Positions 508 to 57,855 of a stretch of DNA of 64,000 nucleotides are shown here, one piece after another. This DNA is from Anastrepha obliqua (lineage: Eukaryota > Arthropoda > Insecta > Diptera > Tephritidae). The notes below the pieces were generated by a model. That model saw only the letters and a list, made by a program, of their open reading frames with translations, searched no databases and was not told the origin of the DNA. The stretch lies in the NCBI RefSeq assembly GCF_027943255.1, contig NC_072893.1, forward strand, positions 127,099,784 to 127,163,783, written 5' to 3'. Position 1 is the first letter of the stretch. Each line of letters starts with the position of its first letter. The translations under genes and the position numbers were made by a program.

Positions 508-525
508 GTGCATACTTTTTGGGGC
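508..525 (+). promoter_or_regulatory. Su(Hw)-like site 1
   Basis: Reads GTGCATACTTTTTGGGGC, 15/18 against the window consensus TTGCATACTTTTAGGCGC. That consensus was built from the copies in this window. Its core and tail match, from memory, the site of the Drosophila insulator protein Su(Hw). Confidence 0.65.
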
Positions 526-655
526 ACACCTTTCACCTCTCCCTTATGTTTTCACACGATTTGCTTACTTGGTCCTAGTTGACTTTACTTATATATTTAG
601 CCCACACGCGCATACATGGCGCTTGTGCACATATTCGCATAAAAATTTTCGCTTG

Positions 656-673
656 GCCCACAGAAGTATGCAC
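656..673 (-). promoter_or_regulatory. Su(Hw)-like site 2
   Basis: Reads GTGCATACTTCTGTGGGC (13/18); the GCATACTT core is intact but the AGGC tail is degraded. Confidence 0.45.
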
Positions 674-1172
674 CTCGTTGATGCTCCGCTGAAAAGGCGC
701 TTAAATTGCCATTAGTTTGATGGGGGACAAGCCTGCCAGGTCTGCCAGGTCTGCCAGGTTTGCTATGCCTGTATCTCTAACCCTTTACTCTCCCTACATT
801 TTGAACTCATTCCCCTTGCTGGTCCACATCCTCCTCCATACCTTGCTCCAATCCTCTCTCGCCGTCCCTATCAGGCTAGCGCCCTTGCTTTGCTAGCCCC
901 TAACTACCTACGGTTGTAGCATTTAATTGCATTTTACAGCCGCAGCCACATTTAACGAATTTAACCACGATACGCGGCGTAAAGGTAGCGATGTGTGCAC
1001 CATCGTAATTTTTACAATTTTTCATGTGAACATTTGTTGCTTTTTTTGTTTTGGTTAAACGCAAATTCTCGCTCATAGATTCGCGCTCGCGCATTTATTC
1101 ACCTGCTTGTGTTAATTGGTTCACCTGCAATCGCATTTTTGATTATTATCACACGAACTCTTAATTTGCGTT

Positions 1173-1190
1173 AAGCCTAAAAGTATGCTA
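1173..1190 (-). promoter_or_regulatory. Su(Hw)-like site 3
   Basis: Reads TAGCATACTTTTAGGCTT (15/18) with an uninterrupted GCATACTTTTAGGC. Confidence 0.7.
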
Positions 1191-1429
1191 ACCGAATTAT
1201 GTGTATACATTTTTTATTCAATTAAATATTTCCAAAAAAAAGTAGCTGTTTTCGTAGCGAATTGAAGCGGAAAATAAAAAATTTTATTTAAGATGAGCTG
1301 CAGCTAAAGGCAGTGGGTTTGTTTTAATAATTGATTCAAAGAAAAATAAAACAACAATAATAAAAAAAATAAAAAAATTGGAAAAGGGATTTATGGCGCA
1401 TGAGTGCCACAAAGATTTTTAACCTTTTT

Positions 1430-2750
1430 GTAGTACTAAAATTGAAAATATAATACTAAATTTTAGTACAAAATCGGAGCTGGCAAAGAGAAAATTTTTA
1501 GCGCAAAAATGTAGCAGAACTTTAGTACTTTCATAATTGGGTTTCATAAATTTAGTAGTAAAATTAGATATAGTACTAAATTTTAGAACAAAAATGTAGC
1601 AGAACTTTAGTACTTTAATAATTGTGGCTCATAATTTTAGTACTAAAATTAAAATATAGTACTAAATTTGAGCACACGTTTTGAACTGTCACAAAGAAAT
1701 CTTTTAGTGGAAAAATATAGCAGAATTTTAGTACTCGAATAATTGCGGTTCATAATTGTAGTACTAGATCTAAGTACAAGCTTTGAGCTATCAGAGAGAA
1801 GACCTTTAGAGGAAAAATATTTCAGAATTTTGGGACCCGAATAATTTTGGTACTCCAATTTTTGTTTACCATGCATAATTAAATTTTGCTCAGATTTTAG
1901 AGTATGCGATTTTAGCGCAAAACTATGGGAACATTTATGCCCCTAAAGTTAAGTACTTAGTAGACATGGTTTAGCATAAACAATTTTATAGTATACTAAT
2001 ACTAAAATTTTAATAAATTTTTTATAACATTTCCGTACAATTTATCAATTTTTTTTTTATAGCATTTTAGTACTTTTTTTTTAATATATTTTTATGAGAC
2101 TACTGCAATTTATTGATTTTTTTTTGCAGCATTTCTCTACTAATTTATTCATTTTTCTGTATAAGACTTTGCTACTATCTATTAATATATTTTTGTATCA
2201 TTTTAGTACTAATTTATTTTTGTCATATTTCAGTAATATTTATTAATTTATTTCTGTTACATTTTAGTACTATTTATTGTATTAATATATTTTTAAAACG
2301 TGTTTGTACTAATTTATTAAGACTTTAGCTCTAATTCAACATATTTGATTACTAAACTTGTAATATTTCTGATATTAATTTACTATTTTAAGAACAAAAA
2401 CTGAAGTACTGTTTAAAGTAATAAAAACAAAGTGAATTTTTAGTACAAAAATTTTAATACATGTTTACTACTAAAATTTGAATAAATTTTCAGTAATAAA
2501 ATTCTAATAAATGTTCAGTACTTAAATTTTAATAAATGTTTAGTACTAAATTTTTTAAGTTTTTAATAAATTTGTAGTACTACAATAAAATTTTAATAAA
2601 TGTTTAGTACTAAATTTTATAGAAATTTTTTGTACTAATATTTTTATAAATTGCTAGTACTAACATTTGTATAAACTTTTAGTACTAAAATTTTTATATT
2701 TTTGTAGTACTAAAACTTTTATAAATTTTTTGTACTACTTCAACCCCCCA
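1430..2750. repeat. Array of the palindrome TTTAGTACTAAA
   Basis: About 1.3 kb in which TAGTACTAAA or TTTAGTAC recurs dozens of times with AT-rich spacers of about 15-60 bp, in both orientations because the 12-mer is self-complementary. Units are diverged, period is irregular, and no coding sequence is visible. Confidence 0.7.
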
Positions 2751-4620
2751 AATTTGGTAATATTTCTTTTGTTTTAATATTCAGGTTCCCTAAAATCTTG
2801 CAATTTTGAAAAAAATGCACAATACTTTACAATTACCATTTCAATTTAACAATTCAAACGTTTGTCTAAAAATTAAATACTATATAAGGATTTAATATAC
2901 ACATGGTAAATTTTGACTACCAAAATTTCTGGACTTTTTATCATAACGCCATTAAAATTGTATAACCAAAATTTTGTACTAAAATTCAAAAACTAAAATC
3001 TAGCAATAAAATTTGTCGTTCAGCGATAAACTTGTAAACTTTATAAATCTGCTGCTTAAATTTAATACCAAAATATCATCATCACCAGTAGCACTACAGC
3101 CTTGTCCAGACCGTTGCTTCCACAAAATATAGTTCTAAAATATATATAAAGGGATAACCCTAAAACAATGAATAATTATGCAGGTATTTAGTATACAACA
3201 GCCTCTGGAGATCTTTGGAAATATTTTATATTTAAATTTAAAAAATGTGATCTGCTAGTAAATTACTTTGAACTCGCTTTGATACAAAGTAACTTCAACA
3301 CTCAGTACATACTTCAGCAGCCAACTTATTTTCGAAAGCATGAAAAACGCAATGCTGAAAATAGCTAAGCTCCGCCAAAGTCACTCCCAAACATCGAAAG
3401 ATGAAAGGGAAATGATGTTACGCAGAATGTCCGTTAGCTATTGATTTCCCACCATTGGAAAAATATACCCCCACACCCGAAATATCAACTCATAAAGTAA
3501 TTATTTTCTAATGCGCTGCTTCCTTTAATCTGTCATTTCATACTGAGCATGGAAAGCGAAGAAAACTTTACTTTGCTTGCTTCGGGAATTGTTTGTTTAG
3601 CAAAAACTTTGTTAGCCAAACAAATTTGTTTGTAAGTAATCCTACAAAAAAGAAAATTTTTTCCTGAAGTATTGAAGGAAACTACAAGTGGTATTCAAAG
3701 AATCTACGTCCTTTTACATACCAACTGATATTTTGTTGGGAGCGTTCTGATATATAGGGCCGTTCTGATTTCTTTACTCTTAAACTTGAACTATTTGTAT
3801 GCCAGCTGATTCTCAAGGATAATGTGAAGGGATTGATGAACTGTGAAATGAGAGGAGCCATGCTTGTGTTCTTAGCTGATGATTCCACGTTTTCAATTTT
3901 TGTCTAAGAGAACCCGACTTCACACTCTCACTTCCTTAAACAAAAAAGTTTAACAGTAAATCAGCGAAATTAGAACTGAAAGTACATAAGCACACCAAAT
4001 TTATTTTTTACTCATCACGAACTGATTACAAACTGAGTACCAACTAACCATAAACAGACTACCTCACCTAACTGAGATCACGCATACCTAAACTACATAT
4101 AGGGTAATGTCTGTTCTTTTTAGTTTGCAATTATTCTTCACAAACTACCTGCTAACGAGTGTTCACTGACTATAAACTGATTATCGCACCCAACGGCCAA
4201 CACAAACTACCTGAAACCTGACTATTTAACCTATCCAAAATCTCGCTAGGGCATATTTTCGAAAAAATTTTCCTTTTTTGTTTTTGGTTATGAAGTTTTA
4301 GTTATTGACTACCTCACCGATCTGACTTGCATTTCCTACTAATTCCGTTTTACACGTTCACATTACTCTTCCCCACCCCCCTATCGCACGTACGGTGACA
4401 TGGTCCTATCCCGCATATTGATTTATACGCGATTGCTAACCAACAAACCACAACTTTGCTTTCAACCATAAACAGATTGTATTACGAGCCTGCCACATAG
4501 CCCAACTTGGTTTCGAGTAATGTGAGATGAAGAGGTAATAGCTGGAGACATATCAGTATTAGCCCATGATGCTATTTACTGTTCCAGATACAAAATCACA
4601 AAAAAAAACATGATGGCATG
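2751..4620. other. Unique noncoding DNA
   Basis: AT-rich sequence without a recognisable gene, transposon or tandem repeat. Short open frames here have no domain-like content. Confidence 0.45.
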
Positions 4621-4638
4621 TTGCATGCTTTTAGGCTT
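4621..4638 (+). promoter_or_regulatory. Su(Hw)-like site 4
   Basis: Reads TTGCATGCTTTTAGGCTT (15/18). Confidence 0.65.
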
Positions 4639-5400
4639 AGCCAGCGGATGTATACTTTTTTGCTTTCACTTAAACGTCGCCGAAGCTGCCAAGGTCTTCG
4701 TGCGCATGTGTGTATGTGTGGAGTGAGTGGAGGAAAAATCAAAAATAGCAGCCATCAAGCAATCAATGTCGAAACAAATCCTTACATTTGCGGAATTCTG
4801 TGCTGGAATGGGATAACTGCCGGTGTATGTGGGGTAAGTGCTAGTTTTTCTGGCACAACAGAATAGTTTGTTGCACGGTGGCCTTGCAGTCAGCTTGGGG
4901 CTAAATATGATTTTCATTAAGTTGATAAGATTTGCCTGCAAACAGACGCTCGGTTAGGCGAATATTTTATGCTGGAGAGGATTTTGCTTTTCCAAAATTA
5001 GGCAAATAAAATCAGTGGGACTATAACAAATGTGACATAGAGGAATTATAAACTTATTTATGAATATAAAAAGTTAAATAACTGGAAAACCAATAGAATT
5101 TTCGTAAATTAAGTTGAAGTCTTAAAGCAAACACAAACAAAAATTGAAGAAAATTTTTGTTTTTAAGTTTTTTTAAATTTTTAATGAAAAATATTCGACC
5201 GGTGAGCGTTGAAATAAATACTGGCTGAAGCGAAAAGTGAACGAAAAACCGCAAATTTGGGCAGAAGTTAACAAAATTGTACCCACTCACAGGTACAATT
5301 ATCGTTTCAACGAAAAAAGTAGCTCAACCAAATTTTTTCCGCTAGAAAAAACCTGAAGAAAATTTGCAGTCAACATTTTGAGAAGAAGAAACAAAAAAAG
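4639..5400. other. Unique noncoding DNA
   Basis: Nothing recognised; AT-rich, with small overlapping chance open frames on both strands. Confidence 0.4.
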
Positions 5401-5439
5401 CAGAAGGGACTCTATGCTGTTGTTTGGACTGATAGCGGA

Positions 5440-5678
5440 CCACTTTCTATGAGCGACGCACATGAAAAGGTAGACATCTCAGACAGGGCACTCTGCTCAG
5501 CATGTGGGGAGGAGGATGTGACGGCAGGCCACTATCTTTACGTATCCCCGTCCTCCGCTTGAATCAGACTTGAGGTCTTTGCCACTGATGTGTTAAGAAG
5601 CGAGCACCTTTGCTCCTCGACACCACAAGAACTGCCCAGATTTCTTCGAAAGTCGGGTAGATTTAAAGAAAATTAAAA
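5440..5678 (+). pseudogene. Non-LTR retrotransposon C-terminal relic
   Basis: One frame gives the end of a LINE ORF2. It contains CSACGEEDVTAGH, the CxxC...H part of the zinc-knuckle that follows RNase H in I/R1/LOA-type LINEs, then a tail ending PRFLRKSGRFKEN before a stop, as in that group. An in-frame stop follows the knuckle and the upstream frame is lost, so this is a dead 3' fragment. About 160 bp further on lies a second fragment of the same sort. Family assignment rests on the motif only. Confidence 0.55.
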
Positions 5679-5839
5679 AGGGAACCCGAGTGCAGTACAA
5701 TAGTGAGTGCTGCACTTGCCAGTTGTCCCGACAAAAAAAGACAACTCGGCTAACTGCTAAATGGAGGTGCCTCTTAATAGCCACACAATTGCTTAGAGTT
5801 TTTTTTGCTTGTTTGTAAAACTAAGCTATACGCCAACGT

Positions 5840-6066
5840 GCGTATAGATCCTTCTGGCTAAGTCGTGAGATTTTTCTGGTCACGTGTAGATCGGGGGTGC
5901 TTGAGGAAACTTCTGAGGCTAACAAAGCTAGAGCTCCTTACATGATTTGGCCGTTAGGTGGTCATGCGGTGAGACTTGGGATTGCTTCAACTTCTTTCTG
6001 CAGAAGCTGTCTGGAGAATGAGGCGGAATCATCTCAGCACCTAATTATCAACTTGGTCGTCATCGT
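5840..6066 (+). pseudogene. Non-LTR retrotransposon RNase H tail / zinc-knuckle relic
   Basis: Frameshifted remains. A stretch like the end of an RNase H domain (LAKS, GHV, TSEANKA) is followed by FCRSCLENEAESSQHLI, a CxxC-x8-H zinc-knuckle. The first part aligns well with 44,981-45,060 on the + strand (shared GTCACGAGATT, CACGTGCAGAT, AACTTCTAAGGCTAA blocks), so both belong to one LINE family. Stops and frameshifts make it non-functional. Confidence 0.55.
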
Positions 6067-6844
6067 CTAATCTTAAGACCTTTCTGTTTGGTTTTTGCCA
6101 AAAAATTGTTCCCAAATTTTATTTCAGAAAATGTTCAACAACCCGTTATCTATTTGCTGGCGAAATTTTCCATCGCTCTCCTGAGATTTTTGTTCATAAC
6201 TATTTTTGCGAATGACAGCTTATTAAAAGAAGCAGATCTCACTATACTGAGTTAGAAATTCATATGGAGAAAAAAAGTTTTCCCAATCTACAATTTTACG
6301 CATTTCATATTCTATCAAAAACATATGCGCTCACTTTAATTAAAGCTCATGACAGAAATCTGAAAGCTGCAAACAACTTTAAATTGCACTAAAAATTCAA
6401 AAATTATCCATATCCGCAGGCGCCTCTTCTGCTCGAAGGCGGATAATTTAAACGCCATAGAAAATATTTCAGTGAAATTCTTTTCAAACTACAGCTAACA
6501 AAATGCGGCATAAAATAAGCCAAAAGCAGTTGATTCGCGCTTCACAAAATATTAGGAAAGCAAATATAAAAGGCAGCTGAAAAAAATGTTGCTCTTCAAA
6601 AAGTTACCGTGCCCAACTTGTGCAGCAAGAAATCTTGCAAACTCAATGTCCAAACTTTGGTAAAAAAATAAAATTAGCCTCGGTGTTTCCAACAAGCGTA
6701 AGCTCGTTATTGGCGCGAAAGCTTTCTTACACAATATAATGTATTTTGCAATATATTCCACTCAACAGTAATCAAACGTGTCTAATCACACGCTTAAGCA
6801 TGCATTTAGGTTAATACATTTTGGCAACTTTTTCGCAGTCTAGT

Positions 6845-6862
6845 GCGCCTAACAATATGCAA
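6845..6862 (-). promoter_or_regulatory. Su(Hw)-like site 5
   Basis: Reads TTGCATATTGTTAGGCGC (16/18), both ends perfect. Confidence 0.7.
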
Positions 6863-7373
6863 ATTCGCATGAAGCACAGCTGTTCGATACATTAACATGA
6901 AATTGCTTTTGGAAGTTAGTAAATAAATACAAGTTGCTAAACATCAATTCTAAAGCAGCAAAATGTTTGCAGGAGGGAGAGTAAGGAAGAAAAAATAAGA
7001 AGCGAACAAAGAAAGTAAAAAGTGAAAAATAAGAAAAAAAACTAGAAAAAGTGAAAAAAAGAAAAAAATAAAAAAGTAAAAAAGAAGAAAGTGAAAAATA
7101 TAAAATAAAAGCGCCAGTAGCCGTCAATCGAATTTGCGCGCCTGTTTCCCAATGTCAACTCAAGGAAAATTGGGAATTTATGGCAACCGCAAAAGATTAT
7201 AAAATTAAACTTCAACCGCCAGAAAAGTCTTACGACCCTCCCCAACTCGCTCGCAGACATCACCCCAAAAATACGTGCTTCATTTTTAAATCTCTACTTG
7301 CCCGCTCGTTATTTTCTGGCATGTAAGTATTTTTTCCCCCACTAGTTGCTTCAGGGTACTTTCGCTACAAGCA

Positions 7374-7391
7374 TTGCATACCTTTAGGCGG
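7374..7391 (+). promoter_or_regulatory. Su(Hw)-like site 6
   Basis: Reads TTGCATACCTTTAGGCGG (16/18); TTGCATACC is the form I recall from the gypsy insulator repeats. Confidence 0.75.
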
Positions 7392-8482
7392 TGGGTTTTA
7401 TACATTGTGCGCTTACCTACGCTTTGGAACTATTTAAAAATTCACAGCGCATCGGAAAGTCTTACAAATTGTTTATGCTACCTTTTCCACTTCAAATGCA
7501 CTCAATCACATACGAGGGTAGTTTGTGGGCCACTCACATTTGGCATACATTCACGCTGTGCATAATAAAAGCAAAATCAGAAATGGGTGCTTGTAAACTA
7601 CGTTTACTTCAAGCTGTGTTATATTTTGCCTTGAGCGCGCGTTTTATTTCTATTAGTTCAGTCGCACAAAAGAAACCTCCCCCAACAGTAGGCAAATATG
7701 TAAATGGAAAAGGAAATGATATTTGGCGAAAAATGCGTGGCTTCGGTAAACATTCGCGCGCTGTTTTTGTTTGTGCCATGAATCACATTTATTATCTTTT
7801 TCAGTGCACAAGTTTCGCACGAAACTGCATTTTTGGCTAGAAAATAGATTTCTATATATAATTTGTGAATCTTAAAAATCAAATAAAGAACTGCTTGATA
7901 TTTAGTTATGCATCACAAAATAGAAAATTTGAGCGAGGAAACTGCGCTGTTAAGCGACTATTTAACTTAAGCTTGGCCACTTTTTAGGCGTCACCTAATA
8001 CTAGTAAGTCTGTTCAGCGAAGAAATAAGCGGCGTAACACAAAGTTGCTTGAAAAAAAATATTTACTCCCTCCCTTTTTACTTACAGCTGTCCTGATCTC
8101 CTCTTGGAGCATATCGCCTTTCCCCTAAGCACTACAGATTACCCACTTTCTTCTTCTCAATTCCTCTTCCCTGGTTTGCTAGCGGCATTGCATTAAAATT
8201 CCATGCACATCTTTCACTATACGAAACTTTTAGTTTTTCACGACAAAAACTTCAACACTTTCACTCTTGATTTTTCCACTTTTTTAGTATCACACCATTC
8301 TAATAAAATTTGTTCTGCTTTTCCGCAAATTTTTTCATTGTTAACTGTTATTTATTTATAGCTTATTTCACTTTTGCTTTTACTTTGACGTTGTTAGAGT
8401 TGCACGTTCACTTTTTCATTGTTTGCTTGTTTTGACCAAGTTTCGTAAATACTCAGACAAGTGCCGAGTACGTGTCGATAAA

Positions 8483-8500
8483 GAGCATACTACAAGGCGC
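8483..8500 (+). promoter_or_regulatory. Su(Hw)-like site 7
   Basis: Reads GAGCATACTACAAGGCGC (13/18); core and AGGCGC tail intact, spacer changed. Confidence 0.55.
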
Positions 8501-12770: not shown

Positions 12771-12771
12771 A

Positions 12772-17682: not shown

Positions 17683-17700
17683 ACGCCTAAAAGTGTGCTA
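17683..17700 (-). promoter_or_regulatory. Su(Hw)-like site 9
   Basis: Reads TAGCACACTTTTAGGCGT (15/18). Confidence 0.65.
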
Positions 17701-17855
17701 TGCATATGTGCACTCGGCCACATTAAAAAACTTTCTCTCTCGACAATGTCAATGACCTTGCAAAATTTTACTTTTGCTACAAAAATGCAGTATGCCAGGC
17801 GCGCTCTGAGGCAGAACGAAGAAACGTCTGGATAGTTGGCAATTATGCGATACGT

Positions 17856-17873
17856 GAAAGTACTTTTAGGTGC
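17856..17873 (+). promoter_or_regulatory. Su(Hw)-like site 10
   Basis: Reads GAAAGTACTTTTAGGTGC (12/18); the ACTTTTAGG centre is intact but GCAT is lost. Confidence 0.4.
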
Positions 17874-18043
17874 GCGCACACACATTCACATGCATGTCTA
17901 GTAATAATACTTAAATTTGTCTACAAATGTTGTAGATAGTTTCACTTGGCAACCACTTCACACACAGCTATAATATATGCATATGTATATACGCTAACCC
18001 TTTTGGTATGTGTAGATGTGCATGGGCGCTGATGTAAACTCTG

Positions 18044-18061
18044 CTGCATACATTTTGACGG
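18044..18061 (+). promoter_or_regulatory. Su(Hw)-like site 11
   Basis: Reads CTGCATACATTTTGACGG (13/18). Confidence 0.5.
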
Positions 18062-18428
18062 AATAATTTGATTTTATGTTATGAATATTTATGCAAATAT
18101 TTAAAGGATAATTAACTTTACTGCCTGCTCAAGCTCAGCATGAAGATACGCACGCACACTCGCAGGCCTGTCAGGAGGCACTCACACATATTATATAAGA
18201 GTGTATGATGTCGAGTGATGTTGCGCCTGTCGGCATGCGCACACTTTTCCCCTTTGTTGCTGTTATGTTTATTGTGCTGTGAAAAATAATTAAAAGTAAA
18301 TTCAGCACATTTGTGGTAAATGAAGTGTGAAGTGAGATGACGTAGCGGGAGCTGGTTTAAGGCCAACACAAAGGCAGCCACATATTAGGTGCATATGTGT
18401 GTGAATGATTGTGCTTGCACACTCTGTT

Positions 18429-18446
18429 GCGCATGTAAGTATGCAT
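18429..18446 (-). promoter_or_regulatory. Su(Hw)-like site 12
   Basis: Reads ATGCATACTTACATGCGC (14/18). Confidence 0.55.
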
Positions 18447-18576
18447 TTCACTATTTACTTACCTACATTTGCTTTTTACTTAGGCCAGCACTTCTGATTT
18501 ATTACAAAGTATTTACAAAGATTTTTGCAATTCCACCACCTAAACGAGGCTAAAAGTTTCTGTCAGAGATTTTTTG

Positions 18577-18594
18577 TTACATACTTTTCGGTGT
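18577..18594 (+). promoter_or_regulatory. Su(Hw)-like site 13
   Basis: Reads TTACATACTTTTCGGTGT (14/18). Confidence 0.55.
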
Positions 18595-37058: not shown

Positions 37059-37072
37059 TGAAACTCATTTCA

Positions 37073-38830: not shown

Positions 38831-39002
38831 CTTCATAAAATTTCATTAACACCCATTCTAAATACTTTACATTCCTTGAATTTTATAGTTTTACCTATTC
38901 AAGGCGAATTTCTCCGAAAACTGTGAAATGTTTTTGAGCGCATTCAACTTAAAAAACGGTAAGTGTTCCTTACATTGAATCAACTGAAGTGTTCTTTCTT
39001 AA

Positions 39003-39311: not shown

Positions 39312-39364
39312 TTAATAATGGCACTAAATGGCAACTCAAACAAGCGCACATAGATTTTCCATAA

Positions 39365-39382
39365 TTGCATATTTTCAGGCAG
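39365..39382 (+). promoter_or_regulatory. Su(Hw)-like site 25 (repeat unit 3)
   Basis: Reads TTGCATATTTTCAGGCAG (14/18). Confidence 0.6.
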
Positions 39383-39445
39383 TTTCACAAAATTTGATTA
39401 AGACTAGCTTTGAGTATTGGATTTAATGCGAATTTCGGCGAAAAA

Positions 39446-39891
39446 CCTAATGTGCTCTTAGGCAAATGTAGCGTGAAATATTAATTAAAATCATCACTTC
39501 TGTAATTGAGCCAAGAAAATCTCTTCTGTACAACTTCATGATGCGCCTGGGAACATAATTCAAGGAGACAATAATACTTGAATTTTTTTTACTTTTACAT
39601 TAGAATATTTTTACGTTTTTTTTTTTGAAATTTAATAAGCTTTTGAGACCAAAAAATAGCACTACGCAGCTATTTTGATAATGGACATATATGGGCTGTA
39701 TACTTTTTGGCGTTTTACCTCGGCATGAAGTCATTTCAATCGCAGTCCACTTGAGACTATACCTCAGTGAGAACATAAATGGCATAAATTTGTGTAGCTG
39801 AACTTTTTAATTCACTGAAGGGCATCAACATATTACACACTCGTAAATTATTTACAATTTTTCATGCAAAAAATCCTTACTTACACTGATT
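39446..39891. other. Unique noncoding DNA
   Basis: Between the site-bearing repeat and the SINE; holds site 26 only. Confidence 0.4.
39696..39713 (+). promoter_or_regulatory. Su(Hw)-like site 26
   Basis: Reads CTGTATACTTTTTGGCGT (14/18). Confidence 0.6.
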
Positions 39892-41062: not shown

Positions 41063-41080
41063 TTGCATATTTTTAGGCGA
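41063..41080 (+). promoter_or_regulatory. Su(Hw)-like site 27
   Basis: Reads TTGCATATTTTTAGGCGA (16/18). Confidence 0.75.
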
Positions 41081-41191
41081 GCGAGATATTCTACATGAAT
41101 CATTTGCAATTCACAACTGCATATAGAATTGGATTTAACAATTTCTGATATTTATTTTAATATTTGTGCTCGCACAGCACCTCTTTGTATG

Positions 41192-41209
41192 CTCCATACT
41201 TTTAGATGC
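41192..41209 (+). promoter_or_regulatory. Su(Hw)-like site 28
   Basis: Reads CTCCATACTTTTAGATGC (14/18). Confidence 0.55.
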
Positions 41210-41339
41210 ATTGTTGATAGTAACTGTATTATTATTTGGTCCCATGCGGGTATTTACAATCACGTTCACCATTTCATATATATTCGCAAATAGCAACTAA
41301 GCCATACGGTGATCTTTGCTTGTGCGCCAACATCAATTA

Positions 41340-41357
41340 AAGCATGCTTTTAGGCAA
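41340..41357 (+). promoter_or_regulatory. Su(Hw)-like site 29
   Basis: Reads AAGCATGCTTTTAGGCAA (13/18). Confidence 0.55.
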
Positions 41358-41443
41358 TATAGCCTTTTTCAGTATACCTTAGCACGTCCACAAATAAATA
41401 CACAATTTTTATTATACAACATTTTCATGCTAATACCCGTGAG

Positions 41444-41461
41444 TTGCATATTTTCTGCCTT
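41444..41461 (+). promoter_or_regulatory. Su(Hw)-like site 30
   Basis: Reads TTGCATATTTTCTGCCTT (12/18); overlaps the start of site 31 by 3 bp. Confidence 0.4.
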
Positions 41462-41476
41462 AAAACTTTTAGACGC
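41459..41476 (+). promoter_or_regulatory. Su(Hw)-like site 31
   Basis: Reads CTTAAAACTTTTAGACGC (13/18). Confidence 0.45.
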
Positions 41477-42297
41477 TACGCTGCTCGGTGCGTGCGTTTG
41501 TGGAGCAACTAGAAAAAATAGGCATTTAATCGAAAAATCAACACAGCATATCGGCAACACACACCTACACACACACACACATGCTGGCGTGGGCGTGAGT
41601 GAGTGGGAAAATTGCTTGCCAACGGCAAGTAAGTGGTGCGCCGAAAAATAGGCAAAACTAATGCAATTGAGAGGCATACAGATAGGTGCGGAAAGGCCGT
41701 GGTCGGGAGTAGCCATGAAGTGAGGCGGAAACCGTTGCCGAGGAGAAATGTGAATGAAAAATCAACAAAGTGCTGAGAGCGGTTAATGTTGGGGAGAAAT
41801 TGTAAGGGCATTGCGATAAAAAAGACTCCGTGAACAGACGCGTACGTGCCATATCCGCCAGACAGCTGTATCAGTTGCCAATGCACCAGCACCAGCACCA
41901 GTAGTTGCTTGCCACACAAGCGCATAACTGTTGGTGGCACACACAGAGGACGGGCGGTTGGAATGAGGCGAAACCAGGGTCACATATAACCCACAGTTGG
42001 CAGCTGCAGGCGGCATATCTATTTAGTTTTTTTTTGTGCAATGAAAATGGCATGCAATGGAAAAATTACATGCCGTGTGGCAAGCATACAAATATGCTAC
42101 ACAGTTGCTTGCAGGTTGGCAGAAAAAACGTATATCCACTTTTGGGCGAAAACACTATTTGCATTCCAGTTGTAAACGCTCGAGTGCTCAAGTGCTCCAG
42201 TGCTTGCCATATGCAGCGATTTAAATTGGGTAAGCGTGCACGCAATTTATTTGATATAGTAGGAAAGCGATGTCGGAAGCGCAAATTAAAATTTTAG

Positions 42298-42315
42298 TTG
42301 CATATTTTTGTGCGT
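42298..42315 (+). promoter_or_regulatory. Su(Hw)-like site 32
   Basis: Reads TTGCATATTTTTGTGCGT (14/18). Confidence 0.6.
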
Positions 42316-42420
42316 GGCTAATTTCAACTGTTATTCGGAATATATTTATGGAGATGTGAAATACTAATTTTAGACTACTTGCGTGCCTCTTGAATTTTTG
42401 GCTGGACCACAAATTTACGA

Positions 42421-42438
42421 AGGCATAGTTTTAGGTCA
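42421..42438 (+). promoter_or_regulatory. Su(Hw)-like site 33
   Basis: Reads AGGCATAGTTTTAGGTCA (12/18); shares the rare GCATAGTTTTAGG variant with site 34 in inverted orientation. Confidence 0.5.
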
Positions 42439-42464
42439 TAAAATGCAGTGCCTTTCAAATCGTT

Positions 42465-42482
42465 ACGCCTAAAACTATGCTT
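42465..42482 (-). promoter_or_regulatory. Su(Hw)-like site 34
   Basis: Reads AAGCATAGTTTTAGGCGT (14/18). Confidence 0.6.
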
Positions 42483-42858
42483 ACACTTTGCTCTCTAGTT
42501 CCTTTTCTATGTTTACTGAGAAATACTTCAAAAAGAGAGCAATTTTTTTCTTTTTATTTATATTCCACTGAGGAAGCCCGCATAAAATTGCAAAACATGG
42601 ATTTATCTTTAAAACACAAGCCTATTCTTGGGGCTCCTTCATGCACACAGTGCAAGGAAAGCCTAAGCAGTATATGAGTTCACTACATTCTTATACAAAT
42701 ATTTGTAAAAATACTTGTTTCTGAAATTGTAGGATAATTTAGGCTACAACTAAAATATTGTACTTTTTAAAATTATATTTTAAACACAATTAAGTTTATA
42801 AAAATATGTGCAATAAAACTATTAAAAGTACTGTAAAATAATATATTTACCGAAAATA

Positions 42859-42876
42859 TTACATACTTTTAGGTGA
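42859..42876 (+). promoter_or_regulatory. Su(Hw)-like site 35
   Basis: Reads TTACATACTTTTAGGTGA (15/18). Confidence 0.65.
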
Positions 42877-42950
42877 TGAGCAAACCATGATTTAACACGG
42901 AGCTATTAGGGTTTGTTGCAACAAGATGAATTTATCACAGTGAAAAAACA

Positions 42951-42968
42951 CTGCATACTTTAAGGCGC
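42951..42968 (+). promoter_or_regulatory. Su(Hw)-like site 36
   Basis: Reads CTGCATACTTTAAGGCGC (16/18). Confidence 0.75.
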
Positions 42969-43287
42969 TCGTTACAGATAATTCTACTTTTTGCACGTCG
43001 CTTTCGCAGATCAGACTAGAGAGCAATCAAACGAAATCAGCTTTTGGAATTTGAATATTGTGTGTGGTTCACAGCTTTCCTGAAACCACTTCTACAAAAG
43101 AGATCTACAAACAATGTCTTCAAAATATATCTACAACAAATTTTAAATTCTATAAAAGCCCGTGAAAATTTGTAAGTAGAAAAAATCAATCAAATATAAA
43201 TAGTATACCCTTCCATTCAAGGTTTCAATTGATTTCCACGCGCACGCATTCACCGCATAAACAAATCGCTACGCTTGAAACTGACAA

Positions 43288-43305
43288 ACGCCCAAGTGTA
43301 TGCTA
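43288..43305 (-). promoter_or_regulatory. Su(Hw)-like site 37
   Basis: Reads TAGCATACACTTGGGCGT (13/18); right edge of the main cluster. Confidence 0.55.
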
Positions 43306-45548: not shown

Positions 45549-45552
45549 TTAA

Positions 45553-46370: not shown

Positions 46371-46388
46371 TCATATGCTTTTAGGCGC
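46371..46388 (+). promoter_or_regulatory. Su(Hw)-like site 38
   Basis: Reads TCATATGCTTTTAGGCGC (14/18). Confidence 0.6.
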
Positions 46389-46753
46389 TGTTTCGTACAC
46401 ACATACATGCAAACAACTTTCAAGCACTTTATATTGCCTTTAATATCGCTACGTTGTTATTAATAATATTGACAGATGTTTGACCTTTTTTCGCATAAAG
46501 CAGCTTACTCAGTGCCATGCGCCGCTCTTGAATCGCAACATTCTCTACTTCCCCTCATTTATTCACTGCTTCACTCACCCACTCAGCAATTGGACTTTTC
46601 TTGTTTTCATATTTTCATATTTTTTCAAAAGTCTATCAACGATTTTTGTTTTGTTAAGCAGATTTTTGTCATTGTAGTTGCCTGCTGGATATTTACCAGT
46701 GTATTGTGCATGTGAGTGTGTGTTTATATGTGTATGAGCGCAGTGAAACTCAT

Positions 46754-46771
46754 TTGTATGCTTTTAGTAGC
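46754..46771 (+). promoter_or_regulatory. Su(Hw)-like site 39
   Basis: Reads TTGTATGCTTTTAGTAGC (14/18, or a one-base insertion before GCG). Confidence 0.5.
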
Positions 46772-47366
46772 GTAATTCCAAAGTGCGGTGAGTAAGTGAA
46801 ATAGTCAAAAAAATATGACGAAATGACGGCTTACAATTTTTACTTCTGGAAATATTTGGCATTACTTCAATTACTACAAGAATATTGTATTTTTGCGTAT
46901 TTCTTTCTTTGTTGCTTTTTACTTTTAATTTCATTCTGCCTTTTAATGCTCCGTTTTTGTTATTCATCGTTTTTTAATACTTCAAAAAAGTAGGAAAAAA
47001 ATGCAGCAGCAGGTACTTAACTCGCTAATCGCCTTTGTTGTTGTTGAAAAAGAAAACAAAACAATTCGCTATTTCTTTTTCTACATATATTTCTATTTTT
47101 TTGTTCCACTCATTCGAAGCGTACTTTATAAAGAGTTCGACCAGCCTTTTTTTAAGTACTCTGAGTCAAGCTAATAAACAGAGGTATTTGTCACAAACTT
47201 ATAAATAAAACAACTTGCAAAATTCAGGCATATACCTTGTAAAATAAAGCTCAAATTGTTTAAAAAATAAAGAGAAAAATGTTAGTATTAAAAAAAATTA
47301 AAAAAGGAGTTTGAGGGGTTACCTGCACTCAGAATTAAAAAAAGCGATTTTTTTAAGATTAATATT

Positions 47367-47384
47367 CTTTATAGTTTTAGGCGA
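47367..47384 (+). promoter_or_regulatory. Su(Hw)-like site 40
   Basis: Reads CTTTATAGTTTTAGGCGA (13/18); inside a possible MITE relic, so may be coincidental. Confidence 0.3.
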
Positions 47385-49066: not shown

Positions 49067-50515
49067 TTAGTCCTGTGAGAATTTTCCAGATTCTTTGGCA
49101 AATCTGTAAATATCCTCCAGTTTCAGAGAACGAATATTTTTCAGTCTCATGACATCGGAACCCAATACTCGTAGCCTTGCTCTAGCAAAGGCTGGACACT
49201 CACAGAGAAAGTGCTCAGTGCTATCCGCCTCCTCCAAGCATGACAGGCATACCGGGTTCTCGATGATTCCAATGGTGGTCATATGCTGACCCCATGGATT
49301 GTGTCCTGTAATGATGCCGACCATCAACCGAATATCTTTCCTTCTAAGTTTTAGTAGAAAGTTTGACAGTTTTCTGTTCGGACTTGTCACAAAACACTTT
49401 GCAGTTCTGCAGCGTTCTAGACCGAACCATCGCTCTTTATGTAGATTGCCTACATAATCGCTGATCCAATTCTTGATTCCTGCGGGACTGATTCCGATTA
49501 TTGGCTCTGGCCCGTGTGGGGGCCCCGCTGATCCACGGTTGGTCAATTCGTCGGCAATTTCGTTTCCTTGAACACCGGAGTGTCCCGGAACCCATATAAG
49601 TACAGGGCTGTTCTGTCTTGTGGCAGAATTAAGCTTCTTCTTACATTCTTGAACAATCTTTGAGGTTTACTTCGCGTTCTTTAGGGCCTTCAATGCAGCC
49701 TGACTGTCACTGAAGACTCCAATCTGTTTCCCGCTCCATGTCCTCTCGATTATCCATTCGGCTACTTTTAGGATGGCAAAAACTTCTGTTTGGAAAACAG
49801 TTGCCATTCCCCCCATAACATAGTGATACTTATTACTATCGTTTAAGTACCATCCGGCTCCAGACCCCATTTCATTCTTAGACCCATCGGTAAAGAAAAT
49901 ATCCGTCAAATCTCCCTGGATGCATTCTGGATTGCTCCATTGCTCACGCAATGGAAATCTCACATCAAATTTCCTTCCAAATGAAACTGTAGGGATCAGG
50001 TCATCTTTAGGTGCTAAAAACAGTGGATACTGCTCCGACAGCAACTTAAAGATTTCTCTGTGCCCCGAAGTTCCATCTTCGTGCCAGAAATCATATTTAT
50101 GGAGTCTACACATTGCTTTTATTGCTTCCTGTTGTATCTTAAGATCCAGGGGGAGCAAATCAAGCATAGCATTTAGGGCATCACCAGAGGTTGTACTCAT
50201 GGCACCCGTGATGCATAAACATACACTTCTTTGCAGCCTGTATAGTTCCCGGATTGGGAACTTAACCATGCTCCGTCGCCACCAGACCACAGAAGCGTAA
50301 GTGATGTTTGTTTTGCCAAAGGCTCTACGGCATTGCTGAAAAATCTTCAATGCACGATTCACCTTCAGTGAAACGTGTGTCTCCCAAGTCAGCTTCTTAT
50401 CCAAGATTACTCCTAGATATTTGACTTCGTTGGAAACACCAAGTGTCACACCTTTCAGTGTTGGAATACTGAGTCCATCCAATTTCCGTTTTCTCGTAAA
50501 GACCTAGTAGGGACC
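49067..50515 (-). pseudogene. RNase H-bearing LINE (I/R1/LOA group), 5'-truncated ORF2
   Basis: Reads from the RT thumb (TRKRKLDGLSIPTLKGVTLG, VKYLGVILDKKLTW) through a complete RNase H: FFTDGSK (D), TEVFAI (E), FSDSQAAL (D) and, past one in-frame TAA at 49,667-49,669, GHSGVQGNEIADELT (D). The tail holds a zinc-knuckle CLSCLEEADSTEHFLCEC. Frame is constant over about 1.4 kb apart from that stop, so this is the best-preserved and probably youngest LINE here. The upstream RT and ORF1 are missing; homology starts near 50,510, the usual 5' truncation. The + strand frame at 49,920-50,300 is a shadow. Confidence 0.85.
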
Positions 50516-51095: not shown

Positions 51096-51299
51096 TAATA
51101 TTTATGCCTGCACTTTTGATAAAGCATTTTGGGTCTGCTTAGCATTGTTTTCTGTCAGGCGCTAATTTGCTTGAGGTAGGTCAGATTTCTAATATAATTC
51201 AAAAAGACATGATTTATTAAACAGGTTAGTATGAATATTAATAAATTTTGGCGAGTTCCATATATAAACTTTCCATATTCAAATATACTAATTCAATCA

Positions 51300-51300
51300 T

Positions 51301-51339
<39 letters not shown>

Positions 51340-51344
51340 TATGA
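51300..51344. repeat. (AT)n microsatellite
   Basis: About 35 bp of uninterrupted AT immediately before a SINE; followed by GATGTTGTTCC, itself the complement of an internal SINE segment. Confidence 0.85.
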
Positions 51345-51353
51345 TGTTGTTCC

Positions 51354-51592
51354 GGCGGCCGCCGTAGCCGGATGAGTTGGTGCGTGATTACCATTCGGAA
51401 TTCACTGAGAGAACGTTAGTTCGAATCTCAGTGAAACACCAAAATTAAGAAAAACATTTTTCTGAAAGCGGTCGCCCCTCGGCAGGCAATGGCAAACCTC
51501 CGAGTGTATTTCTGCCATGAAAAAGCTCCTCATAAAAATATCTGCCGTTCGGGGTCGGCTTGAAACTGTAGGTCCCTCAATTTGTGGAACGA
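51354..51592 (+). mobile_element. tRNA-derived SINE, copy 3 (3' truncated)
   Basis: GGCGGCCGCCGTAGCCGGAT head, B-box region GTTCGAATCTCAGTG, and the body to CTCAATTTGTGGAACGACA. The 3' third is missing. Confidence 0.85.
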
Positions 51593-52251
51593 CACCCTAC
51601 AGCTACAAAACCATATTTTTAAACACCCGGAACTATGCTTTTATCTAATTCTTTAAATTACCTTTAAAAAACTGACTAAAATCAGCAACGAGCTTAACTA
51701 TATTTAAAGCAACTCTCTAAGCCAAAACTAAAACACTTTTTAGCAGGGGCTTCTGATATCCTTATTAACTTATTAGAGTAACCCCACCCGCACAACTCTG
51801 CCAATTAATCTTACTTGCTCACAATCAATTAGTAAAATTAGTCAGCACACAAGGTGTCTGCTGTCATCAACTTCCTCGCCTCAGTCAATGCACTATACTC
51901 ATACGCTGTGCATTTATTCATAGATATATGCACCTGATTGTGTAAGAAGAGCAATCAACAGTGCAATAGCACCTAAATTTATGCAACACTTTATTTACTT
52001 TACAAATACGCCAGAGTCACTCCGAATGGTGAAGCAATAAATTTTGTAACCTACAGTAGCTGGCCTAACTAGCCACTCACCATGTACCCTATAATCCAAT
52101 ACTGTACGCCCAACAGCAGGCTACGTAGTGGACTGACCGTTGACACATCGCCTCAACACACGCTCGGCACATGCGGGCAACACTCGGTAGCTGTTGGCAA
52201 TATTTGTTCAGCACTGCTTGTCTATGCAGCTTAGTATTTTCACCATATCAT

Positions 52252-52269
52252 GCGCCTGTATGTATGCAT
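52252..52269 (-). promoter_or_regulatory. Su(Hw)-like site 41
   Basis: Reads ATGCATACATACAGGCGC (14/18). Confidence 0.65.
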
Positions 52270-52402
52270 TCATTTTGTTTGGTCACTTAATTAAATTAAG
52301 CTATCATATTAGTGTCATCGATGTGCGGCGATACGTGCAGGCAACGAGCGCACAGAGACGGGTGCGCACTGCCCCCTTTGACAGTCACACAGCGGGGCTT
52401 AT

Positions 52403-52420
52403 TCGCCTTAAAGTATGCAA
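52403..52420 (-). promoter_or_regulatory. Su(Hw)-like site 42
   Basis: Reads TTGCATACTTTAAGGCGA (16/18). Confidence 0.75.
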
Positions 52421-52688
52421 CAGCTAGGCCATGTGTCAATTTATAGCTGAATATCTATGGGCATGCATGAGTGTGTGTGTGTGTGAGTGTGCCTAGGTGA
52501 GTGAAATTAAATTTAGGTCGACTCCCGCCGCTAAGCAGTCAGGCAACATACACACACGCACTCACACACACACAAGGACGTTTTATTACTATGCAGTTCG
52601 TATGTTCTGTAATATGTGCGTACATGGTATTATCTGTAAATTTATCTAATTTATTACAGTTTTAATACAATGTACATATTAATTAGCA

Positions 52689-52706
52689 TCGCCTAAATGT
52701 ATGCAA
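52689..52706 (-). promoter_or_regulatory. Su(Hw)-like site 43
   Basis: Reads TTGCATACATTTAGGCGA (16/18). Confidence 0.75.
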
Positions 52707-53120
52707 CCCTACCTTTTGCAGCATTTCGTTTTATTATTATTACTATTATTATTATTGTTATTACTACGCACAACAACAGCAACAATTATTTTGAGTGCTC
52801 TTATTACACGCATTTATGTATTACATTTGTCAATTCATTGTTGTACGCAATCAATTATTTGTAGCAGCTACTCGAGGCTGAAAATATGCACTTGGTAATT
52901 ATGAAATGTGAAAGGTGATGAATTTAAAATAGAGAGGGTTGAATTGACAGCCATTAAGCCAGTAAAAGTCTATTATTTGAGTTTTAGCCTAAATTTGAAT
53001 GCGTCTAGAAACAGGCAATTGCTGTGCAAAGTGTAAAAACTCGTGAGAAATGATAACAGTTTGAAATATTTATGTAATTATTAAAACAAACGCGCCGAAT
53101 TTTATCATAATAGTCACTAT

Positions 53121-53138
53121 GCGCCTTTAAGTATGCCA
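53121..53138 (-). promoter_or_regulatory. Su(Hw)-like site 44
   Basis: Reads TGGCATACTTAAAGGCGC (15/18). Confidence 0.7.
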
Positions 53139-53232
53139 CGCTGAGAATGTTTTTGCAAAATACATTTGTGATACGCGGCGTTGGTTGAAAAATCGTATTC
53201 ACTGCATATTACTGGAAAGCCTACATTATCCT

Positions 53233-53250
53233 ATGCCCAAAAGTATGCAA
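53233..53250 (-). promoter_or_regulatory. Su(Hw)-like site 45
   Basis: Reads TTGCATACTTTTGGGCAT (15/18). Confidence 0.7.
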
Positions 53251-53520
53251 TGTTTTGCAGAGTATTCGACTTTCCAAGGCGCCCATCATTATTTGAGTTA
53301 TTTCAATAACGTTTCATGTTTTTAATTACGGCCTCAAATATATCAAAAAGTATTTATTCTTGTCAATACTTTCATTAACCAACAAAAAAAGCAGAACTAG
53401 AAAAATGTGTGTAGTTTCTTTTTTTGCCAGCAGATATTTTGTAATATATTTTATCAGTGCTAAATTACAATAGTATTCCCTTACATCCACAAAATACTGC
53501 ATGTCAAAAAACTACTAAAT

Positions 53521-53538
53521 TCCCCTGAAAGTATGCAT
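53521..53538 (-). promoter_or_regulatory. Su(Hw)-like site 46
   Basis: Reads ATGCATACTTTCAGGGGA (14/18); 11 bp from site 47, which points the other way. Confidence 0.6.
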
Positions 53539-53549
53539 CTAAAAGTTAT

Positions 53550-53567
53550 TTTCATACTTTTAGGTCT
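53550..53567 (+). promoter_or_regulatory. Su(Hw)-like site 47
   Basis: Reads TTTCATACTTTTAGGTCT (14/18). Confidence 0.6.
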
Positions 53568-53655
53568 TAACATTGTTAATTTCAGCAGAATTATATCTTA
53601 TTGCGACATGGTTTGTTTGTCATTTCACTGGAATATCGACTGCATTAAAATGATT

Positions 53656-53673
53656 GTGCATACTTTTAGGTGC
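53656..53673 (+). promoter_or_regulatory. Su(Hw)-like site 48
   Basis: Reads GTGCATACTTTTAGGTGC (16/18). Confidence 0.75.
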
Positions 53674-54118
53674 TTTCACTTTTTTACTGAGCTCAAATCA
53701 ATTTATTTAATTTATTTTAAATTATATTATTGTAATTACTCAACATGCAAGTAAAACCATTAATAAAAATATGCGTTCAAATAATAATTATGCACATAGT
53801 CTTTCATGGCCTATAAGTAGGCTTCAGAATTATTAATTCACCGCATGGTACAATTAATTAAAAGGCCATTGTTGTGGTTGTGTGCACATATTTATATGCA
53901 TTTATTCACATGTAAAATGCTAACAATTACATTTTACATTAGACATTGCATTTTAATTGCAATTTTCAGGAATTTCGAAATACGAAAAAAATTAAAATAA
54001 TAGAACAACTACAGATTTTTGTTAATTTATTAGGGCAGGTTTATCACAACACGTCTGCTTTATTATTTGTGTGCAAAATGATGCAGAGAAGAGCGATTTT
54101 AATATATGGGTATGGTAT

Positions 54119-54136
54119 GCGCCTGTGAGTATGTTA
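54119..54136 (-). promoter_or_regulatory. Su(Hw)-like site 49
   Basis: Reads TAACATACTCACAGGCGC (13/18). Confidence 0.55.
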
Positions 54137-55718: not shown

Positions 55719-57237
55719 CAATTTTCCTTGCATTTCAAATATTCCATAATCCTTTATTTGTGCTCATCCATCATTTATACCTTTAGCTGCTCGCTTATCC
55801 GTCTGTCAGTCATTTCGCCAAGCGCTTATCACCGCTGACAGTTCAGTGAATTAAGAAAAATGGCATTTATAAATATTTTTAAACAGCGTAACTGTCACTC
55901 AGTTCGCTTCTGCAGTTTTCCACTTTCATTTAATATATTTATTTATTTTTTTTTTTTTTTTGAAATCTGACATAACTTCTGTTTTCATTTGTGTCCAGCC
56001 GCGCTGTCATTCGCTTATTTAGCGCAACCCTTTGCCACCTCGCCACGCTTCAGTTCATTCCAGCTGTGACCTCTCTTATCCATCGTCCCACTTCTGGCTT
56101 TTTGCTTTTCATCAATTTCATTTGGCTTAATGCAAATAAATAAATATTGAATTGAAATAAACAAATGAAATCGAGCGCAGCCAACAAAGGCGTGTTGTTG
56201 GTTTTGTTGTGGTGATAAGTGACAGTAGTGCAGTTATTATTGTTATTGTTACGCTATAACAACTGGTGTGCTTTTTGCATTAATTTCATTAATTTGCGCA
56301 TATTGTCAGATGAACATAAAATGTAGGTAGTTTTTATTTGAATAATTTTGTTTTTTATTAAATATCTTTTTAAATGAAATGTTGTTTCTGTGGGAACCGA
56401 AACGGTATAAGTATTTATTTATTTTATTTTGACTTTTTCAATGTTTCAACAAGCATTTAAACGGTGTCTCTTACATCATTATGGCACTTAATATAAAAAA
56501 GGACTAAAAAAAACAATATAAATTAATGAAAAATAAATAAAAAAAATTTCAGCTTTCTTAATTTTTTTATCCAATTTTTTTAATTTTTTTATTTCAAAAA
56601 TACTCATTTAAAATGAATTTAATTATTCCATAAAATTTAATATAAATATTTTCAATGAAATTTTTACATATATTTTGTTTTTATAATGACCGTATCAGCA
56701 GAAGCTTAAATATTCATACAAATTCCCTCTTACAAATTACTTTTTTACCTTTTTTAACTTCACTTGCATATTAAAATATCTACATTTAAAATCTCCAAAT
56801 TTGTACCTATTTTGTAATGAATATATAAACATATTTAATTAAAATATTTTTTTTTACTTTTAATAGTATTTTTTAAGTCAGAAAAGAAATGGCATACTCT
56901 GGGGCGCATAATAAGATAAGGCATCAGTGAGTATATAATTATAAATTTGGTAGAGCAAATGCTCATTAGCGATAAATTAACAACAAAAAATGAAGTCTAC
57001 TGCAGGGCGTAAGCCTCTGCTAATTAGTTTGAAGCAACGAAAAATTACCAAAATACGCATTCTGTACGCTAAAAAGCTAATTAATGTAAAGCTGTAATAT
57101 AAAGCCTACTTCAAAGCGCACATCTGATAGTGAAAATTTTGTAGTCAAAATTTCTGATATTTCCCAAATAACTGTTATTTTGCAAAGTATAAGTCTCTAT
57201 AAATCAAAAGCATTTGTCTAAAAGCCAATCAACACTT

Positions 57238-57255
57238 TGCTATACTTTTAGGCGG
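57238..57255 (+). promoter_or_regulatory. Su(Hw)-like site 51
   Basis: Reads TGCTATACTTTTAGGCGG (14/18). Confidence 0.6.
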
Positions 57256-57368
57256 TTAGGTTGCTATCGGTTAGTTAGTAAAAAAATCTAACCATAAGCT
57301 ATTAAAAGAACTTGGCTGCTATTAGTAGCTGTAACTTGGATTTTCCTCATTATTATTTAAAAAGTCTA

Positions 57369-57386
57369 TAGCCTATTTTTAGGCTC
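57369..57386 (+). promoter_or_regulatory. Su(Hw)-like site 52
   Basis: Reads TAGCCTATTTTTAGGCTC (14/18). Confidence 0.5.
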
Positions 57387-57513
57387 TGAATTCAATTTTT
57401 CAATTGCATTTTCCACTTATGTATTTACTGCCTATCAAAATCATACGCCTTTTTGTTAATATACAAAAGTGCATTTCTCTCCTAACAAAAATATAATATA
57501 CAACTCACATTAA

Positions 57514-57531
57514 CTGCCTACTTTCAGGCAC
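57514..57531 (+). promoter_or_regulatory. Su(Hw)-like site 53
   Basis: Reads CTGCCTACTTTCAGGCAC (14/18). Confidence 0.55.
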
Positions 57532-57837
57532 AAAATTACAAATTGTTCATAATTCATAGATCAAAGCAATTGCATTTCCCTGAATGCAATAACTGCATTA
57601 AACCACATCATCGCCCACGACGCAGCGGTAGCCGCAATACGACGCATACACGCATACAAATGGCAAGTTGCAAGTGCCCCAATATATAGCCTACTGGTAG
57701 CCGCATTAACAACCAATTGCAGCAATCAACACAACTCAATTTTGGCCACAATTACGCTCAGCATTTGAGGCTGCTTGTGCGTAAACAAATGCATTCAAAT
57801 ATTAGGCGAGGTATTTATTGCTTAGCCAGCCGATACT

Positions 57838-57855
57838 TGATCTACTTTTCGGCGC
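57838..57855 (+). promoter_or_regulatory. Su(Hw)-like site 54
   Basis: Reads TGATCTACTTTTCGGCGC (13/18). Confidence 0.45.

Follow-up and report, generated by a model that had tools for sequence, protein, structure and literature searches.

The 64-kb stretch of DNA analysed here, positions 127099784-127163783 of contig C2 (NC_072893.1) in the 836-Mb genome of Anastrepha obliqua and referred to below as the window, contains tens of sites that, judged by sequence, match the recognition sequence of the insulator protein Su(Hw). Several fields of this kind lie in C2:122-129.6 Mb, the window being one of them; when pooled, they show sites that follow one another head to tail at quasi-periodic distances and bear traces of an old tandem duplication. 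An earlier reading of the window without database searches (the sequence-only reading) had reported the field of sites itself, but overlooked both its membership of a multi-megabase group and the array structure. We propose, with about even confidence, that the arrays have grown by duplication, that selection has kept their sites, and that they would act as platforms of many Su(Hw) sites within a domain poor in genes and probably repressed or replicated late.

Both strands of the window were scanned with the 18-mer TTGCATACTTTTAGGCGC, which gave 65 sites with at least 13 of 18 matching positions, 41 with at least 14, 20 with at least 15 and nine with 16, and none with 17 or 18. These numbers are in line with the 54 copies on both strands, 18 of them at 15-16 of 18, listed by the sequence-only reading. 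In 100 dinucleotide shuffles of the window, the mean numbers at the same four thresholds were 7.47, 1.0, 0.12 and 0.02 (maxima 16, 4, 2 and 1), and 200 permuted consensuses run on the real sequence gave means of 4.4, 0.48, 0.05 and 0.005. The sites lie close together, with 27 of the 40 gaps between neighbours among the 41 sites of at least 14/18 being shorter than 700 bp. As the consensus of the sequence-only reading was derived from the window, two outside yardsticks were also used, i.e. the printed consensus of Adryan et al. 2007 and a matrix built from 15 in-vivo sites printed in Table 1 of the same paper (PMC2374998; of the 20 rows, three asterisked neighbours, one row without a site and one duplicate were dropped). 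The printed consensus has 35 matches in the window at four mismatches or fewer, compared to a mean of 2.0 and a maximum of 6 in 60 shuffles; 14 of these have at most three mismatches and five at most two, and no match has 0 or 1 mismatch. With the in-vivo matrix, 39 matches were found at lnP<-12 (1.24 in 50 shuffles, 0.92 with 50 column-permuted matrices) and 19 at lnP<-15 (0.04 in shuffles), eight of these 19 being located in the 50-60 kb bin; the top match of the window is at position 507, with a score of 19.7. The comparison of matrix and shuffles proposed by the sequence-only reading, carried out here with the published consensus and this matrix and not with the JASPAR entry, thus gives tens of matches against about one in shuffles. 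Chance or AT-richness as the cause of the site density is ruled out by the shuffles, the permuted consensuses and the permuted matrices. The very AT-rich segment 26001-28000 (21.7% G+C) contains no site of at least 13/18.

The identity of the motif follows from its agreement with the in-vivo Su(Hw) consensus TGT(TA)GC(AC)TACTTTT(GAC)GG(CG)(GT)(CG) (PMC2374998, Adryan et al. 2007). The window 18-mer is identical to positions 3-20 of this consensus and the sites fit the in-vivo matrix, which bears out the assignment to Su(Hw) that the sequence-only reading had made. The strongest conserved parts across the 41 aligned sites are GCATACTT and GGCG. The base preceding the 18-mer is a C in only one of the 41 sites, and this avoidance accords with the A or G found at the second position of the gypsy consensus (PMC2374998). 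A protein search with a Drosophila Su(Hw) query retrieved a record named suppressor of hairy wing [Anastrepha obliqua], and A. obliqua very probably encodes a Su(Hw) in which the central DNA-reading fingers are mostly kept. Its predicted finger block shares 285 of 391 residues with that of D. sechellia, and the helix positions -1, 2, 3 and 6 are identical in fingers 4, 6 and 8, agree for three of four in fingers 3, 5 and 10, for two of four in fingers 2, 7 and 9, and for one of four in finger 1, so that 25 of the 32 specificity residues are kept in fingers 3-10. A clear Su(Hw) ortholog was not seen in mosquito or bee (PMC2374998), and an excerpt of PMC5094011 dates the origin of Su(Hw) to before the insects; the presence of the protein in A. 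obliqua, despite the mosquito and bee result, is concluded from the named record.

The density of the field is exceptional, as the sequence-only reading had supposed. Genome-wide, 1455 sites with at most two mismatches were counted, against 17 for a reversed control pattern, which corresponds to 0.11 expected sites per 64 kb; the window has nine, about 80 times the genome mean (Poisson P(>=9) 6.5e-15). The background is given here by genome-wide counts of patterns, and the same density throughout the genome is ruled out by these counts and by the clustering on C2. The exact core GCATACTTTTAGGCG has 121 matches in the genome (control 0). Positions were taken from the 100 matches listed, 99 of which are on contigs C1-C4, and 17 of these 99 fall in the densest 8-Mb stretch, starting at C2:122.2 Mb, compared to a maximum of nine in 500 trials of uniform placement. 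A second, near-exact pattern has 90 matches, 11 of them in C2:122.0-131.8 Mb, and 11 perfect sites are common to both patterns. Neither pattern has a match inside the window, indicating that this field is composed of middling sites.

The fields span about 5 Mb of C2. Sites of at least 14/18 number 11, 4, 9, 19, 10, 14 and 12 per 10 kb in loci L029 to L035, respectively; the 200 kb surrounding the window have uneven and for the most part smaller numbers. In 3-kb loci around eight of the 11 perfect sites of the genome, six have no other site of at least 14/18, while L005 (C2:129.5 Mb) has three such sites and L008 (C4) has nine. The nine sites of L008, at C4:109.86 Mb, share 3 kb in which tandem units of about 134-145 bp are plainly visible; among the core matches listed, seven fall in C4:109.86-111.2 Mb, which may be a second archipelago.

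The array structure was analysed in a pooled set of 245 sites of at least 13/18 from the 264-kb region around the window and L029-L035. Pairs at 80-160 bp are on the same strand in 59 cases and on opposite strands in 12, and for adjacent neighbours at this distance the numbers are 52 and 11 (p 1.7e-7), with a typical head-to-tail separation of 110-160 bp. When L005 and L008 are included, 72 same-strand pairs are found at 90-170 bp, compared to 32 in a jitter null (maximum 48 of 1000), and a second, weaker excess is seen at 230-320 bp (58 pairs, compared to a mean of 35 in the null, which itself reached 58 at most in 1000 runs). The strand specificity of the peak at 80-160 bp disfavours nucleosome spacing alone. 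Flank similarity exceeds the 95th percentile of opposite-strand pairs in 14 of the 62 close same-strand pairs (overall p 6e-5), and plain tandem similarity is found in the arrays of L034, L031/L032 and L008. Among the 37 BLAST matches printed, three are between different loci and two between distant places of one locus, all of 21-29 bp, and the others lie within a local array. The pooled fields therefore show both the head-to-tail spacing and the flank similarity between neighbours that characterize a tandem-duplicated site array. Either old tandem duplication with decayed spacers or a selected head-to-tail spacing fits the arrays; a duplication origin is favoured for at least part of them, because of the strand specificity and the leftover flank similarity in these sequences. 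That the motif has outlasted its flanks suggests selection on the sites, a signal weakened by the sites having been chosen for matching the motif.

In the window itself, sites of at least 13/18 group into eight clusters of three or more, with a head-to-tail spacing of 90-175 bp. These clusters and one single site are as follows (window positions):

508-1190: cluster of 3 Su(Hw) sites at 508 (+), 656 (-) and 1173 (-), from the scan
4621-4638, plus strand: single Su(Hw) site, 15/18, from the scan and the in-vivo matrix
6845-8500: cluster of 4 Su(Hw) sites at 6845 (-), 7374 (+), 7678 (-) and 8483 (+), from the scan
17683-18594: cluster of 5 Su(Hw) sites, with 18415 and 18577 head to tail, 162 bp apart
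36404-39713: cluster of 13 Su(Hw) sites, among them the diverged 225-bp duplicate 38588/38813, and with a tandem repeat of 19 bp at 36405-36443
41063-43305: cluster of 10 Su(Hw) sites, with 41063/41192/41340/41459 head to tail at 129, 148 and 119 bp
46371-47384, plus strand: cluster of 3 same-strand Su(Hw) sites, from the scan
51145-54136: rich cluster of 13 Su(Hw) sites, nine consecutive on the minus strand, with 52874/53001/53121/53233 at 127, 120 and 112 bp
56890-57855, plus strand: cluster of 6 same-strand Su(Hw) sites, with 57238/57369/57514/57687/57838 at 131, 145, 173 and 151 bp

In a BLAST comparison of the 150-bp flanks of the 41 sites, the only matches were between neighbours that overlap, apart from two short ones, of 22 and 26 bp, which join sites far apart. 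The statement of the sequence-only reading that flanks are unrelated outside one local tandem repeat is thus largely correct, but fails for the 13/18 sites 38588 and 38813, which form a diverged duplicate (81% over 156 bp). Of the window, 12.3% consists of segments that recur in the sampled DNA (the 264 kb, L001-L008 and L029-L032), and none of the 41 sites is located in them. Dispersal by an element repeated in the sampled DNA is ruled out by this absence and by the unrelated flanks. Words enriched in 34-59 kb compared to the flanks are ATATATA, CACACAC and short AT-rich words such as AAATCTGTA (6 versus 0.1 expected), none of which reads as the site of a second factor, and Rfam gave no matches at gathering scores. 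Other repeats in the window are AT-rich repeats at 1496-2737, with units of about 25-140 bp, many of which contain TAGTACTAAA, and a 67-bp unit at 59805-59930 (1.9 copies, 98% matches), a recent tandem duplication.

The surroundings of the window may be poor in genes. A crude coding score over 264 kb gave no segment recognised as a host exon among the top 45, the recognisable ones being transposon-like, and two of seven window open reading frames (ORFs) matched Pfam, both to transposon families, which is consistent with the gene-free DNA described by the sequence-only reading. A DDE_3 transposase fragment is located at 21318-21893 on the plus strand (Pfam E 8e-9), which we take to be Tc1/mariner-like. 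It is followed on the same strand, at 22141-23646, by a 502-aa open frame with no Pfam match and 848 relatives at E<=0.001, the best of which is 79% identical; among the 120 relatives listed, the few named ones are from insects, and the frame looks like that of a mobile-element protein. A retroelement remnant with two adjacent frames lies at 49070-50503 on the minus strand; one frame matches RNase H (E 3e-6) and the other has no match. In L029 (C2:122.118 Mb), a dense run of sites at 4306-6241 and a further site at 7849 precede a probable first coding exon of a host gene (L029:8329-9069, plus strand), which begins with an ATG at 8329 and ends at a GT resembling a splice donor. Its predicted product is rich in His, Gly and Ser runs, and no relative was found at E<=0.001 among 7996 candidates scored, nor a Pfam match at E<=1.

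The tens of sites, the lack of recognised host exons and the Drosophila precedents are most simply read together as a platform of many Su(Hw) sites within a repressed domain. Judging from the pooled fields, we propose that the arrays would have arisen as a one-site unit of about 110-170 bp was duplicated locally again and again, after which the spacers would have decayed and selection would have retained the sites. Su(Hw) could then occupy many sites of an array simultaneously and, together with CP190 and Mod(mdg4), form multi-site architectural platforms which, inside a gene-poor and probably repressed or late-replicating domain, may insulate, pair mutually and tune contact with the nuclear lamina, an effect that may go in either direction. 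As reported in excerpts of the respective papers, the SU(HW) motif is enriched inside Drosophila lamina-associated domains in a pattern hard-coded by sequence (PMC2991331), Drosophila 'Null' domains have weak SU(HW) and overlap with 'Black' chromatin (PMC6199721), Mod(Mdg4)-67.2, tethered by Su(Hw), cooperates with SUUR both in late replication and at the gypsy insulator (PMC9917439), and single shared Su(Hw) sites aid the pairing of two eve boundaries (PMC13405320). It is possible, though we put it forward only tentatively, that the insulator-site arrays on this arm make up an archipelago of several megabases which tandem duplication keeps renewing ('insulator minisatellites'), and that the domain could thereby have a compartment, a pairing or a replication programme of its own, based on Su(Hw).

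Several observations weigh against the proposed platforms. Concerning the sites, the best ones in the window reach 16/18 and none is higher, fingers 1, 11 and 12 of the A. obliqua protein have diverged (fingers 11 and 12 share none of four helix residues with D. sechellia), and Drosophila sites are little conserved in mosquito, bee and beetle (PMC2374998). Concerning the arrays, 48 of the 62 close same-strand pairs lack clear flank similarity and differ weakly from opposite-strand pairs (p 0.007). The window alone has 13 same-strand versus four opposite-strand pairs at 80-160 bp and one clear duplicate (38588/38813), and orientation runs among its sites of at least 14/18 are not significant (p 0.32). 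Because this signal is weak, the spacing claim depends on pooling; the majority of the fields pooled were chosen for their matches, L029-L035 and the other fields beyond the 264 kb having been selected for strong ones. Not all fields are far from genes, as the probable host exon of L029 lies about 2 kb past the dense run of sites. Finally, excerpts of two papers report that SU(HW) knockdown raised lamina contact inside lamina domains (PMC2991331), implying that SU(HW) opposes this contact and speaking against a simple repressor role, and that Su(Hw) sites alone are insufficient for long-range pairing (PMC13405320).

The exon of L029 also bears on a different reading, in which certain large genes with developmental or neural roles are silenced or insulated by the fields in a distributed manner, Su(Hw) acting on the promoters of these genes instead of on domain-wide architecture. 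About 0.5 kb separates the last site of that field from the probable first coding exon that follows it, and direct promoter repression by Su(Hw) is described in excerpts of PMC6441048 and PMC6385973; yet the fields extend over about 5 Mb and no host exon was recognised within 100 kb of the window by the crude score in its top 45 segments, and we regard such gene-directed action as possible but somewhat unlikely. The spacing peak, with its weaker second excess at 230-320 bp, and the many close pairs lacking flank similarity could instead reflect sites that arose singly, with selection for a head-to-tail distance of about 130 bp that suits directional pairing or a placement the size of a nucleosome. 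This explanation seems rather unlikely, as nucleosome spacing alone would not be expected to produce a strand-specific peak (59 versus 12), and some arrays show plain tandem similarity.

The same tandem similarity in part of the arrays would be expected if they were decaying minisatellites that carry the motif by chance and have no selected function. Such a neutral origin is very unlikely, given that the same motif occurs in arrays with unrelated flanks and outlasts those flanks (an argument weakened by the choice of sites), and that none of the 41 sites is in sampled repeats. Nor do we give much credence at all to another zinc-finger protein with a similar motif as the binder: occupancy by Su(Hw) is here predicted from sequence, which leaves room for such a protein, but a probable Su(Hw) ortholog with conserved central fingers is present and the sites fit the matrix of in-vivo Su(Hw) sites. 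It is hardly credible that the fields are what remains of insulators from gypsy-type retroelements. Gypsy has 12 such sites in 340 bp (PMC2374998), while the head-to-tail spacing here is 90-175 bp, the strong GGCG half lies outside the 12-bp gypsy consensus, the sites avoid sampled repeats, and no LTR-element protein was recognised among the listed ORFs of at least 110 aa, seven of which were run against Pfam. Identity with the gypsy insulator, which packs about 12 sites into 340 bp of a gypsy element, is rejected by spacing and flanks.

Duplication-grown platforms of Su(Hw) sites would bear on a more general matter. Whether many middling Su(Hw) sites make a domain, as opposed to single strong sites making boundaries, is a question to which we know of no answer; 41-65 sites in 64 kb, with sister fields on the same arm and isolated sites elsewhere, provide a ready natural test of it. 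The duplication pattern, if true, would reveal one route by which insulator clusters arise and persist, and the window may then illustrate the construction of an insulator-rich chromosome domain in a fly.

The genome of D. melanogaster has a size of 120-140 Mb. It contains 2,281 predicted sites at P<e^-15 by the matrix of Adryan et al. 2007, and 63% of such predicted sites in a test region were enriched more than 1.4-fold in vivo (PMC2374998). This is about one predicted site per 64 kb, compared to which the window is some 16-18 times richer, an approximate figure since the matrices differ. The non-gypsy genomic sites of Drosophila share the 18-20 bp recognition sequence with the window and are mostly intergenic or intronic (PMC2374998). 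They differ in being usually single, as the sequence-only reading had rightly stated: among the 41 enriched fragments that contain a match, 40 have a single site, and two pairs closer than 300 bp and six closer than 1 kb were found in 3 Mb (PMC2374998), in contrast to the clustered sites of the window with its 27 of 40 gaps below 700 bp. The gypsy insulator, like the window, is a homotypic array of Su(Hw) sites (12 in 340 bp, PMC2374998), whereas the window clusters occur without a recognised retroelement, have a spacing of about 130 bp, extend over tens of kb and carry a motif longer than the 12-bp gypsy consensus. Sequence-encoded motif enrichment is shared with the SU(HW)-rich lamina-associated or 'Null' domains, which according to excerpts of PMC2991331 and PMC6199721 are repressed; the enrichment in lamina domains is modest there (48.1% of peaks versus 40.6% expected, PMC2991331), while that of the window, seen at the level of sequence, is about 80 times the genome mean. 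No fields of this kind were found among the listed titles and opening lines of abstracts on clustered or tandem Su(Hw) sites. Homotypic clusters of transcription-factor sites form a general class in which many sites for one factor are gained locally. The window differs from this class in scale and in that the factor is an insulator protein, and what this analysis adds is the archipelago on C2 together with the array structure of its fields.

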